Source of the DNA: Juglans regia
Lineage: Eukaryota > Streptophyta > Magnoliopsida > Fagales > Juglandaceae
Length of the DNA: 64,000 nucleotides
Direction of reading: 5' to 3'
Assembly (NCBI RefSeq): GCF_001411555.2
Contig: NC_049904.1
Coordinates: 32,817,473-32,881,472 of the forward strand
Notes under the pieces: generated by a model
The model's database searches: none
What the model was told of the DNA's origin: nothing
What the model saw: only the letters and a program-made list of their open reading frames with translations
Shown here: piece after piece, positions 6,820-63,182 of the stretch
Layout of the letters: every line of letters starts with the position of its first letter
Position numbering within the stretch: the stretch's first letter is position 1
Position numbers and translations under genes: made by a program

Positions 6820-8994
6820 TTACATGATGGAGCAAGGGTTGGAGCTCTCATGGCAATCCCTGACCTCATAGATTGGATAGGAGCAGGGCTGTAAACGAGC
6901 CGAGCTCGAGCGAGCCTGGGGTGTGCGAGCTCGGCTTGTTTACTACTCGAGTCGAGCTCGAGCTCGGCTCGTTTATCAGTCGAGCACATTATAGCGTCCA
7001 AGCTCGGCTCGTGTAGAAGGGAAGTAAGTTCGAGCTCGGCTCGAGCTCGATTCTGTTAACGAGCAGAGCCCGAGCTCGGCTCGCTTATGACAAAAATTTA
7101 AAAATTAAAATGTTTAATATAAAATTAAAATAAATGCTCATAATTTATATATTTTGTCCAACATTATAATTTATTACTCATAATATAATATTATATTTAT
7201 ATTAATTAGTGTAATATAGTAGTGCTATTATACTAATTCCATATAAAACTAAATTAATATGTAAGTTGTAACACATGTTATATACTAATACTATAACATA
7301 TTATATTTATATTAATTAGTATAACACGTCATATAAGTATATAACATTATCTAACTTTATCTTTTATCAAACATTATAATCTATTATTCATAATATAATA
7401 TTATAGATCTATTATATACTAATACTATAATACTATTATACTAATATGATAAGGAGATGGTGTAATTTGTAAATTTATAATGTTATATATTATGTAAGAC
7501 TATACTACTAATAAATTAATAATAGTATATATTTATTAATACACCACTAATACTGATACACTACCATATGTATATACTAATACACCACTAATATTGATAC
7601 ACCACCATATGTATATACTAATACTAATATGACATGTTAAGATTATACATCATCATACATAGTAACATATACTAATATCTTATAGACTTATACTAATACA
7701 CCACCATCTTTCTTTCATATATTAATATTAGTATATTAGCATATTAGTATATCATACACGTAACACTACCATACATTAGCAATAGTATATCAATGTATCA
7801 TCTTTCTAACACCACTAATATATTAACATACATTTACTATTACTAATATCAATATACCATCTTTCTAACATTCATATACTAATATGAATATATATATATA
7901 TATATATAATATGGACCATATGGTGTAATTTGTAAATTTATAATGTTATATATTTATTGGACTCATGTATTCATCATATCTTCTAGTTCTATAAAACTAG
8001 AAGTTAATATTATAAATTTATATATTGTATATGTAGTGGACTATAAATCTATAAAACTAAGTCTATATACATATTTATGTATATTATAAATTATATATAT
8101 CTAACTTTTGGCTATTATATATATATATATAAATATTGTATTATATATATACAAATATATACGAGTCGAGCTCACGAGTCAAGTCGAGCTTCAAACGAGT
8201 TTGTTCACGAACATTAATCGAGCCGGTCGAGCTTTATACGAGTTTGTATTGTTTAATAATCGAGCCTAATTCTATGTTTACGAACGGCCCATTTAATATT
8301 TGATCCGAGTCGATTTCGAGTTTAATCGAGTCGAATTCGAGCTGCCTATCGAGTAGCTTGTTTATTTTACAGCCCTAGATAGGAGTGGCAGGAAGGAACA
8401 CCACCACCATAAGGCCACGCAATGCACTCCAGTACTTTCTTCTCTTCTTTCTTCTCTTCCTTTACAGTAATTATGTGTGCAGGTCCCACTTTCTTTCTGA
8501 GTAACGATGTAAGTTCCACTGTATCAATCATATCCCCTTTTACTTCTATTTGGTCCTTGTCATCCCCTTTTAAAGAAGCTGATTCCACCCCTGAACATCA
8601 CATATATATCATGGCCACCCATCAAAAACAGATCAAATGGAAAAAAATATTATTTGTAATTTTCAGTATTAATAAAATGCAATATATATATATATATTAA
8701 CAGCGGTGGTCTATACAATATAGTACTGTCGACCCAAATTAAATGTTTTATTTGATCGTTACGTACCTCTAACGCTAACTGCAATCTTCAAGGCTTTTGT
8801 CCGGACTTTCTGTCCATCCAGCCTGTAGCAAAAAAGGCACTTCATCTGGCCATCCATGGACACCCTGATCAGCACCGTTTGCTGCAAAAACCAATGCAAC
8901 TTTATGTTAGCAAAAACTATATTATATATCTTCGGTCTGATTTTTCTCACATGCAGCACGTACTCCTAGCTAGCAACCTCCAATATACCTTTAT
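6820..8994 (-). pseudogene. HIPP1: HMA-domain isoprenylated-type gene split by a hAT element
   Basis: Three exons on the minus strand: 8994-8989 (2 codons), 8881-8767, and a last exon at 8590-8378 plus 6875-6820. Joined, they encode 129 residues. A betaalpha HMA fold is seen in 'QTVLIRVSMDG', 'RTKALKIAVSV', 'GDDKDQIEVKGD' and 'TSLLRKKVG', followed by a Lys/Glu linker and 'IYEVRDCHESSNPCSIM', a complete CaaX prenylation box. A CLFC metal-binding-type motif sits at residues 17-20. There are two lesions: the start is ATA instead of ATG, and a 1494-bp hAT element lies in the last exon so that translation would end 'SYLGL' without CSIM. HIPPs of the HIPP46/47 type bind metals or partners at membranes. 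The frame is otherwise clean, which suggests recent inactivation. Confidence 0.85.
6884..8377. mobile_element. Non-autonomous hAT-like element inside HIPP1
   Basis: The ends are CAGGGCTGTAAA on the left and TTTACAGCCCTA on the right, an inverted pair. They are flanked by perfect 8-bp duplications GATAGGAG at 6876-6883 and 8378-8385, diagnostic of hAT insertion. Both subterminal regions are packed with GAGCTCG and CGAGCTCGGCTCG words. The core is AT-rich with many TATACTAATA repeats and no transposase ORF. A second family member is at 22030-22870. Confidence 0.9.
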
Positions 8995-9210
8995 AATTGT
9001 CTTGGTTTTTCAGCTACGTCGATGATGAGTATATATTGAGTATTGGACGTAAAGCCTCACGTCTTTTAGCTAGAAAGAGAAATATGCACAGGCCAGTCGG
9101 GTGCTTAACAATTTCTTCTTTTTTTGAGGTACTCTCAGCTGTTTGAGATACTACTCCCATTTATAGGTCTCTTTGTCTTCGATAGGCTTGAAGCCTTCTT
9201 TACCTATCGA
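8995..9210 (-). promoter_or_regulatory. HIPP1 upstream region with TATA box
   Basis: The minus-strand TATA box CCTATAAATGG lies at 9167-9177, about 170 bases before the expected start. The block from TTGGTTTTTCAGCTA to GGTACTCTCAGCTGTTTGAG is shared with the other units. Confidence 0.6.
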
Positions 9211-21065: not shown

Positions 21066-22029
21066 TTAAATTTTTTCCCATTGGACTTATAATGGTTTGT
21101 TTTTTTATTTACAGCATGCATAAGATAGAAGCCCAAGCTTGAATGGTTGCAAAACCTTCAACCTCGATTGTCTTTGTGGAAACTATCAAAATAAAAGGTG
21201 GTCATTCGTGTTAGGATTACACTGTCATATCGATCGAGCCCCATTGACAACACTCCTGCTTTTACACTTCGAATAATAATTAGAACGATCATCACAACCT
21301 CACACTATACATGCAGCCCCAACAATAGCCCTAAATCAATACCAGAAGTTACAAAGAACAAATATAGAACATTTATGGCAGGGTGAATGAAATAGGTGTA
21401 GAAGAGAATTAGGTAAGCCATCAACACAAAACAGGTGTAGAACAACAGAATGGAAAAAATCAACACAGCTAAAATTACAGAGGCACGAGAAAAAAGAGTG
21501 GCTAAACTCGAACTCAGAATAAGGACTAGGTATCCCATTTAATAATTCAACATATAGTGGCAAAAAATCACAGCACGGTTTTAAATAACAGTGGCTGAAC
21601 TCGAACTCAAATAACATAAAACAACAGAATCACCAAAATTGTCAACAATTCTTGAAATTATAGAGGCACATGAGGAGGTTTCCATCCCTTAGAGAATCAA
21701 CACATGTATCTCATTCAATTCACAGAACATTTGAATCATAGTGACTCAACAAAGATTACATAGGTTTGAATCTAATCCAACCAACATAGAGTGGCAGTGC
21801 CTTAACATCAAAGCATCACAACATAGAGGCTAAAACAGAAACACTAGAATTACAATAGCAACTGGCGCATAAAACCAACAAGAGCCATATCTCAGGAAGC
21901 AGAAAAAATACAAAATCTCATAGGCACAAAATCTCACAGATTTACAGCATGAAAGCATCACAACATCACAACATAGAGGCTATAACATAAGAAAAACTTT
22001 ATGTACAATCATTTTTGCATACTTCTAGC
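21066..22029. other. Intergenic DNA, no gene
   Basis: Repeated motifs such as CATCACAACATAGAGGCTA (near 21816 and 21968) hint at local duplication. ORFs lack domains. Confidence 0.4.
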
Positions 22030-22870
22030 TAGGGCTGTAAATAAACCAGTCTATTCGATAGCCCGCTCAGTACTCGCTTGATTAAACTTGACTTGTGAAA
22101 AAAAAAAAACTTGTTCGTAAAAGCAGATACTCGCTCAATTTGTAAACGACATATACCCAACAAAACTCGACTCAACTCGACTAAGGCTTGTTAAGGCCCG
22201 CTCGTTAGCTCGACTCGATTAAAATTCATTCATATATTGATAAATATATACATACACTTATATATACATATATATATGTATTAACTAATAATATAAGCAT
22301 ACAACTTTTATAATTAAATATATCATATGTAATTTAATTACTTATGTCTATATAGTAAATATACTTCATAGGTATATTTTATAATTTGTATAATAATTAG
22401 TCGATAAAATTTAATAATTTCATATACTTGTACGTGAGAACCATATATGAAATAGATATATGTTATCATATTAAGTGTAAGTATTAATAATATGTGTAGG
22501 CATATAATATATTGTTATTTTGGATAAATATCAACTAGTTAGATATTAATTATATATAAATTTTTTAAAATTTAATAATTCAATAGAAGTTATACTTGTT
22601 AGTTGTATAAATTCAATATTATATCTTTTTCTTAATTTATTAATTATTAAATCTTATTCAAAAAATTAAAAAATAAATAATTCGAGCTCAAGCTCGGGCT
22701 CGACTCGACTCGACTCGAACTTGTTTGTAAGACGAGCTCGAGTTAAGAGTTTAATTTATCGAGTGGAGCTTGAACAAATAAAAAAAAAAACATCTCGAAT
22801 TCAAGTATTTTGAGTCAAGCCGAACTCAGCAAGCCAAAGACCAGCTCGGCTTGGCTCGATTATAGCCCTA
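22030..22870. mobile_element. hAT-like element, second member of the GAGCTCG family
   Basis: It starts TAGGGCTGTAAATAAACC and ends GGCTCGATTATAGCCCTA. The flanking 8-mers CTTCTAGC (22022-22029) and CTTCTCGC (22871-22878) match at 7 of 8. The subterminal regions are rich in CTCGACTCGA and GAGCTCGAG, as in 6884-8377. No transposase. Confidence 0.85.
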
Positions 22871-22878
22871 CTTCTCGC

Positions 22879-39451: not shown

Positions 39452-41641
39452 ATGATTACAGCAAGAAACTTGTGCGCTCGTTTCGTTCTCCGGAACGGTG
39501 GGGGCGTTTCGCTCTACTCAACCTCAACCGTGCCAACTCGTTCTGGAAAACCATGGAACCCCTGTTTGAACGTTCTCTACCGTCGGATTTCTCCCATCGG
39601 AGATCCCAGGGTCTCCATCGTTCCCATACTCGAGCAATGGATCGAAGAAGGCCGAACTGTCAGCAGAGCACCACTACTTGCCATCGTCAAGGAGCTCAGA
39701 CGCTACAAACGATATGCCCACGCCCTTGAGGTATTCCTTGACGTATTACTTCTTTTTCTTTCTTTTTGATCTCTCAGGATTTGAAATCTTTGATTTTTAT
39801 CGTTCATTGAAGCCATTTGGTTGTTAATCGAGTTGGTCAATATTTTCTCTAGTGCCGAATCTGAACAACATGTTTTGTTGTTCCCACGTAAATAGTCTCT
39901 CTTTAATTTAGTAAACCGGCATTGCTATTTGCCTCTCAAATATCGAGGCACTGATTGATCTGTTACTGAAATAACTGGATGGCTTTGGATATTTTAAATC
40001 TTCCCTTTTACCTGTAAAAGTAAAGAAATAACTGGATGCATGTCTCCAATGCGCTCTTTGACATGTACAAAACAGTCTCCAAGCGTATTTGCTGCAGGTA
40101 GAGCTCATAGCAAGCTGGGTCTGGGTGCCCTCTTTAAAGGATTAGTGTCTAGTTTTGTACCTCTTACTTGGACTCAAAATAACATCATCCATCTTCATGA
40201 TGGTGAAAACGGTTGAAATAACTTTCTCAATTAATGTCGTGTTGTGGGATCCTGAATAACCATTAACCAGAACATAACTGTTATTGTGAAGATAGTTGAC
40301 TTATTATATAAGAAACAAAACTGTTATTTTCATATTTGTTATTTTTATAAGCAGGTATCTATGTGGATGACTGACAGAAGATACTTTGACCTTTCGTCCC
40401 GTGATATTGCCATCCGACTAGACTTGATTTCAAAAGTTCGTGGGATAGAACAAGCTGAGAATTATTTCAATAATGTTCCAACAAAGTTAAGAGCTCTTGA
40501 GGTTTATAGTGCTCTTCTCAACTGCTATGCCTATGCAAAACATGTGGAGAAAGCAGAGGCCATTATGCAGAAGATGAGAGAATTGGGGTTGGAAAGGACT
40601 GTAGTGGCTTTCAATGTTTTGCTTAATCTTTATTATCAGACCGGAAATCATGAGAAGCTGGACTGTCTGATGCATGAAATGGAAGAAAAGGGAATTAGTT
40701 TTGACAAATTTACTTATTCTATCAGGCTCAGTGCATATGCAGCTGCTTCTGATGTTGAGGGAATTGACGAGATTCTAAGAAGGATTGAATCCAATCCTGT
40801 TGGTCTTTTGGATTGGACTGTCTATGCTGTTGCGGCAAACGGGTACACAAAAGCTGGGCTGGTGGAGAAGGCTTTGGCAATGCTGAAGAAATCAGAGGGA
40901 TTAGTAACTGCCAAAAGGAGACATTCAGCTTTTGATCACCTCCTCACACAATATGCTGCAATAGGCAAGAAAGAGGAAGTGGTAAGGCTCTGGGAGGTGT
41001 ACAAGAAGAAGGAGAGGATATACAATAGGGGGTATATAAGTATCATAAGCTCACTGTTAAAGTTTGAAGACATTGACGGTGCTGAGAAGATACATAATGA
41101 GTGGGAATCCAGTGAGTTAAACTATGATATCAGGATACCCAACCTCTTGATTAGTGGTTTTTGCAGGAAAGGTCTTCCGGAGAGGGCTGAAGCCCTTGTA
41201 AACCGGGTAGTGGCGAAAGGAATAAAGCCTAATGTAAGAACCTACTATTGTTTGGCAACGGGGTACATTCAGATTAATCAAATTGAAAAGGGACTCAAAG
41301 CAATGAAGGAAGCAATTCTGGTCTGTGGGCCTTGGTGGAAGCCAAGCAAGGAAAGCTTGGCTGCCTGTCTGGACTACTTTATATGCAAAGAAGATGTAGA
41401 GGGAGCACAGGAATTTATCAGATTACTCAGGGATAAGGAGATTGTCTCTGCGGATGTTTATGACAGCTTGTTGAATTGTATTAAAGATAGTGAATCAAGC
41501 TTTTCTGCGTTCAGTGAGATGGGAGGGGATGCTCCAGTTGGAAATGGAGAAACAATTGGACTTTCAGAGCTCGAGGAGGACAGCGGTAATCACAAAACAA
41601 GTAGCAGCAACATGTTCGATATAAATTCAGAACATTTCTGA
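39452..41641 (+). CDS. Mitochondrial P-class pentatricopeptide repeat protein
   Basis: Exon 1 (39452-39730) and exon 2 (40355-41641) encode 521 residues. The N-terminus MITARNLCARFVLRNGGG is Arg-rich without acidic residues, a mitochondrial presequence. A 'IGDPRVSIVPILEQWIEEGR' segment and 'ALEVSMWMTDRRYF' follow, as in the At2g20710 / At4g21705-like clade. Then come tandem 35-residue repeats, for example 'EVYSALLNCYAYAKHVEKAE', 'VAFNVLLNLYYQTGNHEKLD', 'FTYSIRLSAYAAASDVEGID' and 'VRTYYCLATGYIQINQIEKG'. There are no E or DYW extensions, so it is a P-type RNA-binding factor for organelle RNA stability, splicing or translation. The RNA target is unknown. The single intron sits just before VSMWMTD. 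The start follows a clean in-frame ATG. Confidence 0.92.
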
Positions 41642-61306: not shown

Positions 61307-61700
61307 TCATCTTCCTTTGTTTTGTGAACCCTTTGTTTTGTTAATCTTATCGAGATTTGCTACAAAAACTTGAGTTTTGCGAGCCCTTTCAACTTCTGAC
61401 ATTTCCCTTACCTCCAATATATTCTCCAAACCTTTAAGTTCCTCCAAGAGTGTCTTCTTCTGGCTTTCCACATTACCAAACACCTGTTCATTCAAGCTCT
61501 TCAGATCTTTTTTCAATGCCTTCAATTCACGTGCCAGAATGTAACTTGGGGTTCCATGGAAATGATAGGAAGTTTACCATTATTGAACGCAGTCAATAAA
61601 GCCATCAGATTTTAGCCACATGTTCTCAAATTTGAATTACCTTGGACCTCCATGTATTCTGCCTCAGTCATGGGAAAGTGGTCTGAACATAGTCAGGGAA
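61307..61700 (-). mobile_element. LINE-A, linker region (minus strand)
   Basis: The minus strand reads 'DHFPM', a frameshifted 'FENMWLKSDGFIDC', 'GTPSYILARELKALKKDLKS' and 'NEQVFGNVESQKK', the conserved segment between endonuclease and RT of plant LINEs. It continues the endonuclease piece at 63480-63790; the two are separated by the insertions described next. Confidence 0.85.
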
Positions 61701-63182
61701 GCACACTGGGTTGCAAGATAGCGTTTCTTCCGATGACTTATCTAGGATTACCGCTGGGTATAGCGTCGAGGGCATGCTCGATTTGGGATACAATGATTGA
61801 AAAAGTAGAGAAGAGACTGACAGGGTGGAAGAGAATGTACTTGTCGAAAGGAGGCCGGATTACGTTAATCAAAAGTATACTTTCTAACCTACTCACTCAC
61901 TTTTTATCATTATTCCATTTACCGGTAAGTGCGGCGGGTCGACTTGAGAAGCTATAGAGAGATTTTATGTTGGGGGCTTAGGAGAAGAGTTTAAATTCCA
62001 TCTAGTCAAGTGGGAGATGGTGTGTCGTCTTATCTCTAATGGTGGTTTGGGTATTATAAATTTGAGGTTGTTCAATCGGGCGTTACTTGGCAAATGGTTG
62101 TGGTGATTTACCAAGAAATCAGAAGCTTTATGGAAAACTGTGATCGAGAACAAATATGATGATATAGGGGAGGGATGGTGTACTAGAGAAGTTAGAGGGG
62201 CCTCTGGAATGGGGTTATAGAGACATATTAGAAGAGGATGAGAGGTCTTCCATCAACACACTAACCTGCAATTGGGGACAGGTTCCAAGATTAGATTTTG
62301 GAAGGATGCTTAGTGTAGCAACAGTGTTCTACAAGATCTATTTTCTACACTTTTCTTGATCTCAAGTGCCAAAGATGCCACGGTGGAGGAGGTTATGGAA
62401 GTCTCAGGTAGGAGCATTCACTGGAACATCAATTTCAACCGAGCGGCACAGGATCGGGAGATGGAGAGTTTTGTAGATTTTTACAATCTCTTGTATTCTT
62501 GTCGTCCAAATATTCAACATGAAAATGACTTGTGGTGGAGTCCTGCAGGGAAAGGGGTGTTCACTGTTCGTTCCTTCTATAACGTCCTCACACAAGTTCC
62601 TGAGATACAGTTTTCTTGAAGGAGGCTTTGGCTTCATAAGGCTCCTCCCAAAGCTTCTTTCTTTGTGTGGACAACGTCTTTAGGCAAGATTCTCACTACA
62701 GATAATCTGAGAAAGAGGAGGATAATCATTGTTGACTGGTGTTGCATGTGTAAAAGTTGGAGTGAGTCGGTTAATCATTTACTTTTACATTGCGAGGTAG
62801 CCAGGACTCTATGGGATGAGGTGTTTAAAAGAATGGACTTAGCGTAGGTTATGTTGGAAACTGTGTTGGATGTATTGGCTTGCTGGACCTCAATTCGAGG
62901 TTTGAGACAGATCATAGCAGTTTGGAAGATGATCCCTATCTGTATTATCTGGTGCTTGTGGCAGGAGCGTAATGAAAGGACTTTTGAAGACAGAGAGATC
63001 TTTGGCGGAGCTAAAAATGTTATTTTTTAGGACTCTTTGTACTTGGGCCATTGTTATGGACTGTAATGGCATGGACCTTCATGGCTTCTTAGTTTCTAAT
63101 GCACCTACATAATTAGGGCATTTTTAACTTTGTAATCGACAGTTGTTGGATTAATAAATACTTGTTTTACTTGTAAAAAAAA
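61701..63182 (+). mobile_element. LINE-B, 5'-truncated, inserted in LINE-A
   Basis: It begins inside the reverse transcriptase ('STLGCKIAFLPMTYLGLPLG', 'KVEKRLTGWKRMYLSKGGRI', 'TLIKSILSNLLTHFLSLFHL'). It passes through decayed sequence to the zinc-binding region ('WWSPAGKGVFTVRSFYN', 'KAPPKASFFVWTTSLGKILT', 'CCMCKSWSESVNHLLLHCEV') and ends with 'CIIWCLWQERNERTF' and a poly(A) at about 63174-63184. Several stops and frameshifts. The 15-bp AACATAGTCAGGGAA lies at 61686-61700 and 63183-63197. Confidence 0.9.

Follow-up and report, generated by a model that had tools for sequence, protein, structure and literature searches.

A non-autonomous hAT element separates the CaaX box from a tandem walnut HIPP copy that has also lost its start codon

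HIPP1, a HIPP-type gene of Juglans regia, has its last coding exon split by a 1494-bp element that leaves the CaaX box stranded on its far side, and the same copy carries ATA in place of its start codon. We consider it highly probable (about 0.82) that a hAT element inserted into one tandem HIPP copy, a decaying duplicate that also lacks its ATG and has an intact paralogue, HA, nearby. The DNA analysed, hereafter the window, comprises 64,000 nucleotides and corresponds to C4:32817473-32881472 in our genome search; positions given without a prefix are those of the window. The window had no Rfam match at gathering thresholds, and no title or abstract on this HIPP1 insertion was found among open-licence papers.

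HIPP1 lies on the minus strand. Its gene model consists of the coding part of exon 1 (6 nt, 8989-8994), exon 2 (8767-8881) and exon 3, which extends over 8378-8590 up to the insertion point and includes one copy of the target-site duplication. The detached tail, with the other copy of the duplication, is located at 6820-6883 and encodes CSIM followed by TAA (6834-6820). Exons 2 and 3 are open and the splice sites are usable. Read into the element, the frame gains the residues LGL and reaches a TAA stop at 8369-8367, so that it ends ...VPSCHSYLGL. When the element and one duplicate are left out, the frame becomes ...VPSCHSYPIYEVRDCHESSNPCSIM, followed by a stop; its tail reads SYPIYEVRDCHESSNPCSIM. 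The insertion removes the last 18 residues, the CSIM box among them; the encoded product, ending SYLGL, has no C-terminal CaaX box, and CSIM is present beyond the element only. The initial annotation had described a HIPP-type gene with its CSIM tail cut off, a last exon split by a 1494-bp element with hAT-type ends and a perfect 8-bp duplication, and frames ending SYLGL with the element and CSIM without it. Every detail of this observation that we tested was correct: the element was located at 6884-8377, both frames were reproduced by translation, the duplication and ends follow a pattern common to six complete copies, and the gene type and lost tail agree with protein relatives and with an empty paralogous site.

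The element (6884-8377, plus strand) has the ends CAGGGCTGTAAA and TTTACAGCCCTA and is bordered by GATAGGAG at 6876-6883 and 8378-8385. This octamer occurs exactly twice in the 64 kb, both times abutting an element end, although two matches alone are not rare (reached in 32 of 100 shuffles). A chance pattern is excluded by the five other complete sites, which have different perfect 8-bp duplications, and by the uninterrupted HA. The 12-bp inverted ends are complementary at 11 of 12 positions; the outermost plus-strand base is C instead of T, a change private to this copy. We rejected the mismatch as an Ac-like family feature: in each of the five other complete copies both tips are T. CGAGC-type motifs are concentrated near the ends (first 200 bp, last 211 bp), with none in the middle, and such crowding of motifs is expected of subterminal transposase-binding sites. 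At 22030-22870 on the plus strand lies an element that is older and smaller and whose ends are related (TAGGGCTGTAAA ... ATTATAGCCCTA); it spans 22022-22878 with its duplications, CTTCTAGC and CTTCTCGC, which agree at 7 of 8 positions and differ by one base. The end sequence TAGGGCTGTAAA was not found in open-licence papers.

A search of the 571-Mb assembly, in which 40 of 381 candidates were scored, returned at least 62 matching pieces of the element. Counting that of the window, six copies are complete, each flanked by a different perfect 8-bp duplication; the five others have inverted ends complementary at 12 of 12 positions and are 0.5-1.1% different. At two near-identical loci, L007 and L008, one end each was found. 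L008 proved to be an end of a longer element, 7841 bp in length, at C1:27104925-27112765 (L021:526-8366), which has the same 12-bp ends as the window element and the perfect 8-bp target-site duplication CGTATCAG, present twice. The first 254 bp and the last 1236 bp are 96% and 97.6% identical, respectively, between the two elements: positions 2-254 and 261-1494 of the window element align to the ends of the long one, and this deletion junction is common to all six complete 1494-bp copies. L021 contains zf-BED (E 9.9e-05), hAT-like_RNase-H (5.2e-32) and Dimer_Tnp_hAT (2.7e-25) domains, each over the Pfam cut-off, spread over two open frames about 240 bp apart. Since both of its ends match this hAT element and the transposase is absent, the 1494-bp element is a Ds-like internal-deletion derivative of the 7841-bp element, a relationship new to the present work. 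By its domains, the C1 element is a candidate transposase source for the 1494-bp family.

The family looks recently active, as two of its copies, L002 and L003, differ at one of 1497 sites, a near-identity that we read as a sign of recent movement. We also scanned eight open frames from L003, L004 and L005 for host genes (L002 and L006 contributed none), and no other element copy was shown inside a host gene in this set. Two frames flanking the element at L003 encode a reverse transcriptase with an endonuclease domain, which places this copy in a LINE-type retrotransposon; one frame at L005 is a Ty3-type gag, and five of the eight frames had no domain match. A 101-aa open frame at 61652-61957 of the window resembles, by eye, a LINE reverse-transcriptase tail like that of the L003 frame.

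The empty site was found in HA (J. regia protein P0002, F2P56_010017), whose exons match C4 32802714-32803267, about 21 kb from HIPP1. HA is uninterrupted at the insertion point, has a single CTCCTATC, and its frame continues to CSIM. All 64 bases of HIPP1 6820-6883 are identical to HA, the duplicated 8 included. Elsewhere, the two genes diverge unevenly: introns 1 and 2 differ by about 1%, while the figure is 8% for the downstream flank and 9% for exon 2, a patchiness that suggests gene conversion. For this reason, the identical tail alone is no clock. Seven of the ten exon-2 differences between HIPP1 and HA fall within 21 bp (8823-8843), in the loop after strand 1; this concentration could stem from selection acting on that loop as well as from gene conversion in patches.

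The age of the insertion was estimated from the element itself. Of the 1475 sites that could be compared, 6 carry substitutions private to the window copy, private meaning different from the unanimous state of the other copies at sites with letters in at least 5 copies. At the published J. regia rate of 1.51e-9 per site per year (PMC9899254), this corresponds to an insertion about 2.7 My ago, with Poisson limits of 1.0-5.9 My. The recency claimed initially from the exact restoration of the frame holds through these private substitutions, while frame exactness by itself is a weak argument: dating by the intact frame was rejected, since the duplications and unchanged tail allow about 7-23 My at assumed rates of 7e-9 to 2.1e-9, and this upper limit rises further at the slower walnut rate. 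Divergence from sister element copies is the better clock. Methylated transposons mutate faster, so that the true age may be below 2.7 My. As the split of J. regia and J. sigillata is dated to about 0.85 Ma ago (PMC9254524), the HIPP1 insertion may be shared with J. sigillata.

The closest protein to HIPP1 is P0001 of J. microcarpa x regia (120 of 129 residues), which ends CSIM. Its structural model shows a beta-alpha-beta-beta-alpha-beta fold over residues 2-86 followed by an unstructured tail (mean pLDDT 68, tail mostly <50). The best structural match of this model is to the rice Pikp-1 HMA domains (E 1.9e-09, TM 0.95 by target), OsHIPP19, sHMA25, sHMA94 and RGA5 are among the 50 structural matches listed, and PDB sequence matches for P0001 start from 1.1e-12. 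It is on homologues and on this model that we assign an HMA-like fold; Pfam at E up to 1 gave no HMA domain in HIPP1, P2 or P3. The modelled fold ends at residue 86, about 29 residues ahead of the insertion point, which follows residue 115. A MKCLFC string that fits MxCxxC, encoded in exon 2 at about 8825-8850, lies inside a lengthened loop, off what we take to be the usual position of the CxxC metal-binding site in HIPPs. CaaM motifs typically lead to farnesylation (PMC12609287). In Arabidopsis HIPP7 and N. benthamiana HIPP26, mutation of the prenyl-cysteine is reported to abolish plasmodesmal localisation largely, with some left for HIPP7 (PMC10459601). Effector targets include several HMA-like host proteins (PMC12835825). 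A truncated HIPP1 product, if translated, would thus be expected to lose membrane anchoring.

HIPP1 belongs to a cluster of seven HIPP-like copies on C4 between 32.802 and 32.851 Mb, with a further partial match at C4:32789501. Three tandem paralogues lie on the minus strand of the window. P2 (11649-12233; exons 12233-12228, 12128-12020 and 11902-11649) ends YYCS and P3 (25325-25920; exons 25920-25915, 25816-25708 and 25578-25325) ends YY, both without a CaaX box; P3 and J. regia P0008 agree at 122 of 122 residues. P4 (31750-33617, limits approximate) is broken, having an in-frame stop in exon 3, a long interruption between exons and no CaaX box. L013 and L012 end CSQ, again without CaaX, and of the seven copies HA is the only one that keeps both ATG and the box; L015, a further copy on C1, ends CSIM. 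Orthology of HIPP1 with P0001 was considered and set aside: P0001 is the best match, but the tree does not resolve the five Juglans copies that have a CaaX box. Among the protein relatives, P0002 (J. regia) and P0001 (J. microcarpa x regia) continue to CSIM, and neither an LGL end nor SYLGL occurred in the best 120 of 152 relatives. Among 34 relatives picked by hand for alignment, 21 end CSIM, nine have variants (CSIL and CNIM twice each, CSVM, RSIM, CSIS, CPIM, CTIM) and four, P0008, P0009, P0010 and P0014, have no box. The CaaX-less clade contains proteins of J. regia, J. microcarpa x regia (P0010) and pecan (P0009) with support 100/99; as it is common to Juglans and pecan, the loss in the P2/P3 clade is probably older than the Carya-Juglans split. 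The pecan protein P0006 has the tail NPRSIM, with arginine at the CaaX cysteine; if the sequence is right, this is a further independent loss. A further HIPP-like exon, L016, lies on the unplaced 857-bp contig C15060; it ends ESSNPCSIV and lacks the part of the tail before this end, a gap also seen in J. microcarpa x regia P0007.

A decidedly improbable reading, in our judgement, takes these cases together as recurrent box loss that is tolerated or favoured in the walnut-family HIPP cluster. Membrane-anchored HMA proteins would thereby become soluble, perhaps as decoys of pathogen effectors, and a still-active Ac/Ds-like walnut hAT family would have made the newest case. Such a reading counts the ancient loss in the P2/P3/pecan clade, the point change in pecan (NPRSIM) and the recent hAT insertion.

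A second lesion, absent from the initial annotation, affects the start codon. Exon 1 of HIPP1 reads ATAAAG, with ATA instead of ATG at 8994-8992, while the six other cluster copies (HA, P2, P3, P4 and two copies left of the window) have ATGAAG; the start codon of HIPP1 is lost. The first in-frame ATG is at residue 11, and strand 1 of the P0001 model comprises residues 2-9, so that a start at M11 would drop this strand from the fold. Upstream, an in-frame TGA lies six codons away with no ATG between. Initiation at the near-cognate AUA or from an unseen upstream exon is possible. The proposal that the insertion cut the prenylation box off a HIPP gene therefore needs qualifying: CSIM is indeed detached, but from a copy that, having an ATA start, probably makes no normal protein anyway.

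These features bear directly on whether truncated HIPP1 is still expressed as an HMA-like protein that is soluble and lacks prenylation, in function an HPP, the insertion having changed its localisation instead of killing the gene. The frame and splice sites upstream of the insertion are intact, the HMA-like fold is complete before it, and the CaaX-less sisters of the cluster persist as open frames in a clade common to pecan and both Juglans records. We nevertheless regard this as unlikely, given the ATA start with its upstream stop, the loss of strand 1 that initiation at M11 would entail, and a SYLGL end met in none of the best 120 of 152 relatives.

If the element were spliced out as a cryptic intron, as is known for some maize Ds alleles, the protein would again end in CSIM, its tail being slightly altered. 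Frame-compatible pairs do exist, for instance donor 8370 in the element end with acceptor 6859 in the exon, giving ...CHSYLGLDCHESSNPCSIM; but the score of this donor is 2.2 bits, compared with 7.5 and 9.4 in HIPP1's own introns (rough matrices), and shuffled elements perform no worse in 246 of 1000 cases, or 314 of 1000 for body-keeping pairs, which makes such splicing very improbable. Least credible is an assembly artefact or chimera with no real insertion. In its favour, a search with the flank 8386-9200 yields a single copy of this locus in the assembly, the other matches being HA (88%) and copies more distant still. Against it, misassembly would hardly produce a perfect duplication that differs from those at the other sites, together with correct boundaries and private substitutions.

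Most likely, HIPP1 is a duplicate in decay and not a gene whose product changed from prenylated to soluble. A zf-BED hAT transposase, of which a full-length 7841-bp relative is present, would have mobilised the Ds-like element in trans. The sequence shows that the element entered the last coding exon of a tandem HIPP copy, with an 8-bp duplication. An ordinary three-exon transcript would run into LGL and the stop and lose the last 18 residues, the predicted HMA-like fold region being untouched in sequence. With the ATA start and the next ATG at residue 11, most likely no functional HIPP would come from HIPP1, whose role the intact HA may cover. On the other hand, an undecayed tail and open exons 2 and 3 are what would be expected if HIPP1 had worked until recently; the low intron divergence from HA suggests that gene conversion may have kept parts of HIPP1 alike.

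The element resembles two-component Ac/Ds hAT systems in its short inverted ends, 8-bp duplications, internally deleted copies and full-length relative with zf-BED and transposase domains. It differs in that the walnut ends are TAGGGCTGTAAA and not the maize sequence, and in the CGAGC-type arrays near both ends; its mobility is putative. The gene resembles HIPP16/46/47-like HIPPs, of the HMA-like clade with OsHIPP19, sHMA and the Pik-1/RGA5 HMA domains, in its single HMA-like fold, its lysine/glutamate-rich linker and the CSIM of intact copies; unlike these, HIPP1 has neither an ATG nor an attached CaaX box, and it has a longer loop behind strand 1 than most of the non-Fagales relatives among the 34 aligned sequences. 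As it stands, its product lacks a CaaX box like those of HPPs, the heavy metal plant proteins without a prenylation site, but here the loss came by insertion into a copy without ATG, which is not an established expressed HPP.

Overall, the locus offers a clean, datable and young cut-and-paste insertion in a coding exon of a tandem plant gene, for which the empty site, the family of the element and a candidate source of transposase all lie in the same genome. The event is ordinary in kind, a non-autonomous hAT element in a tandem duplicate; its controls are unusually complete. Counts of functional HIPPs should leave out HIPP1, which is probably unable to encode a normal prenylated protein. Given the apparent recent activity of the family, walnut trees may differ at its sites, which could serve as markers and, possibly, as a natural transposon system. 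Finally, the window also contains a PPR gene at 40286-41641, for which a pecan protein, at 93%, is the best among the 120 of 234 matches listed, none of them named as J. regia.
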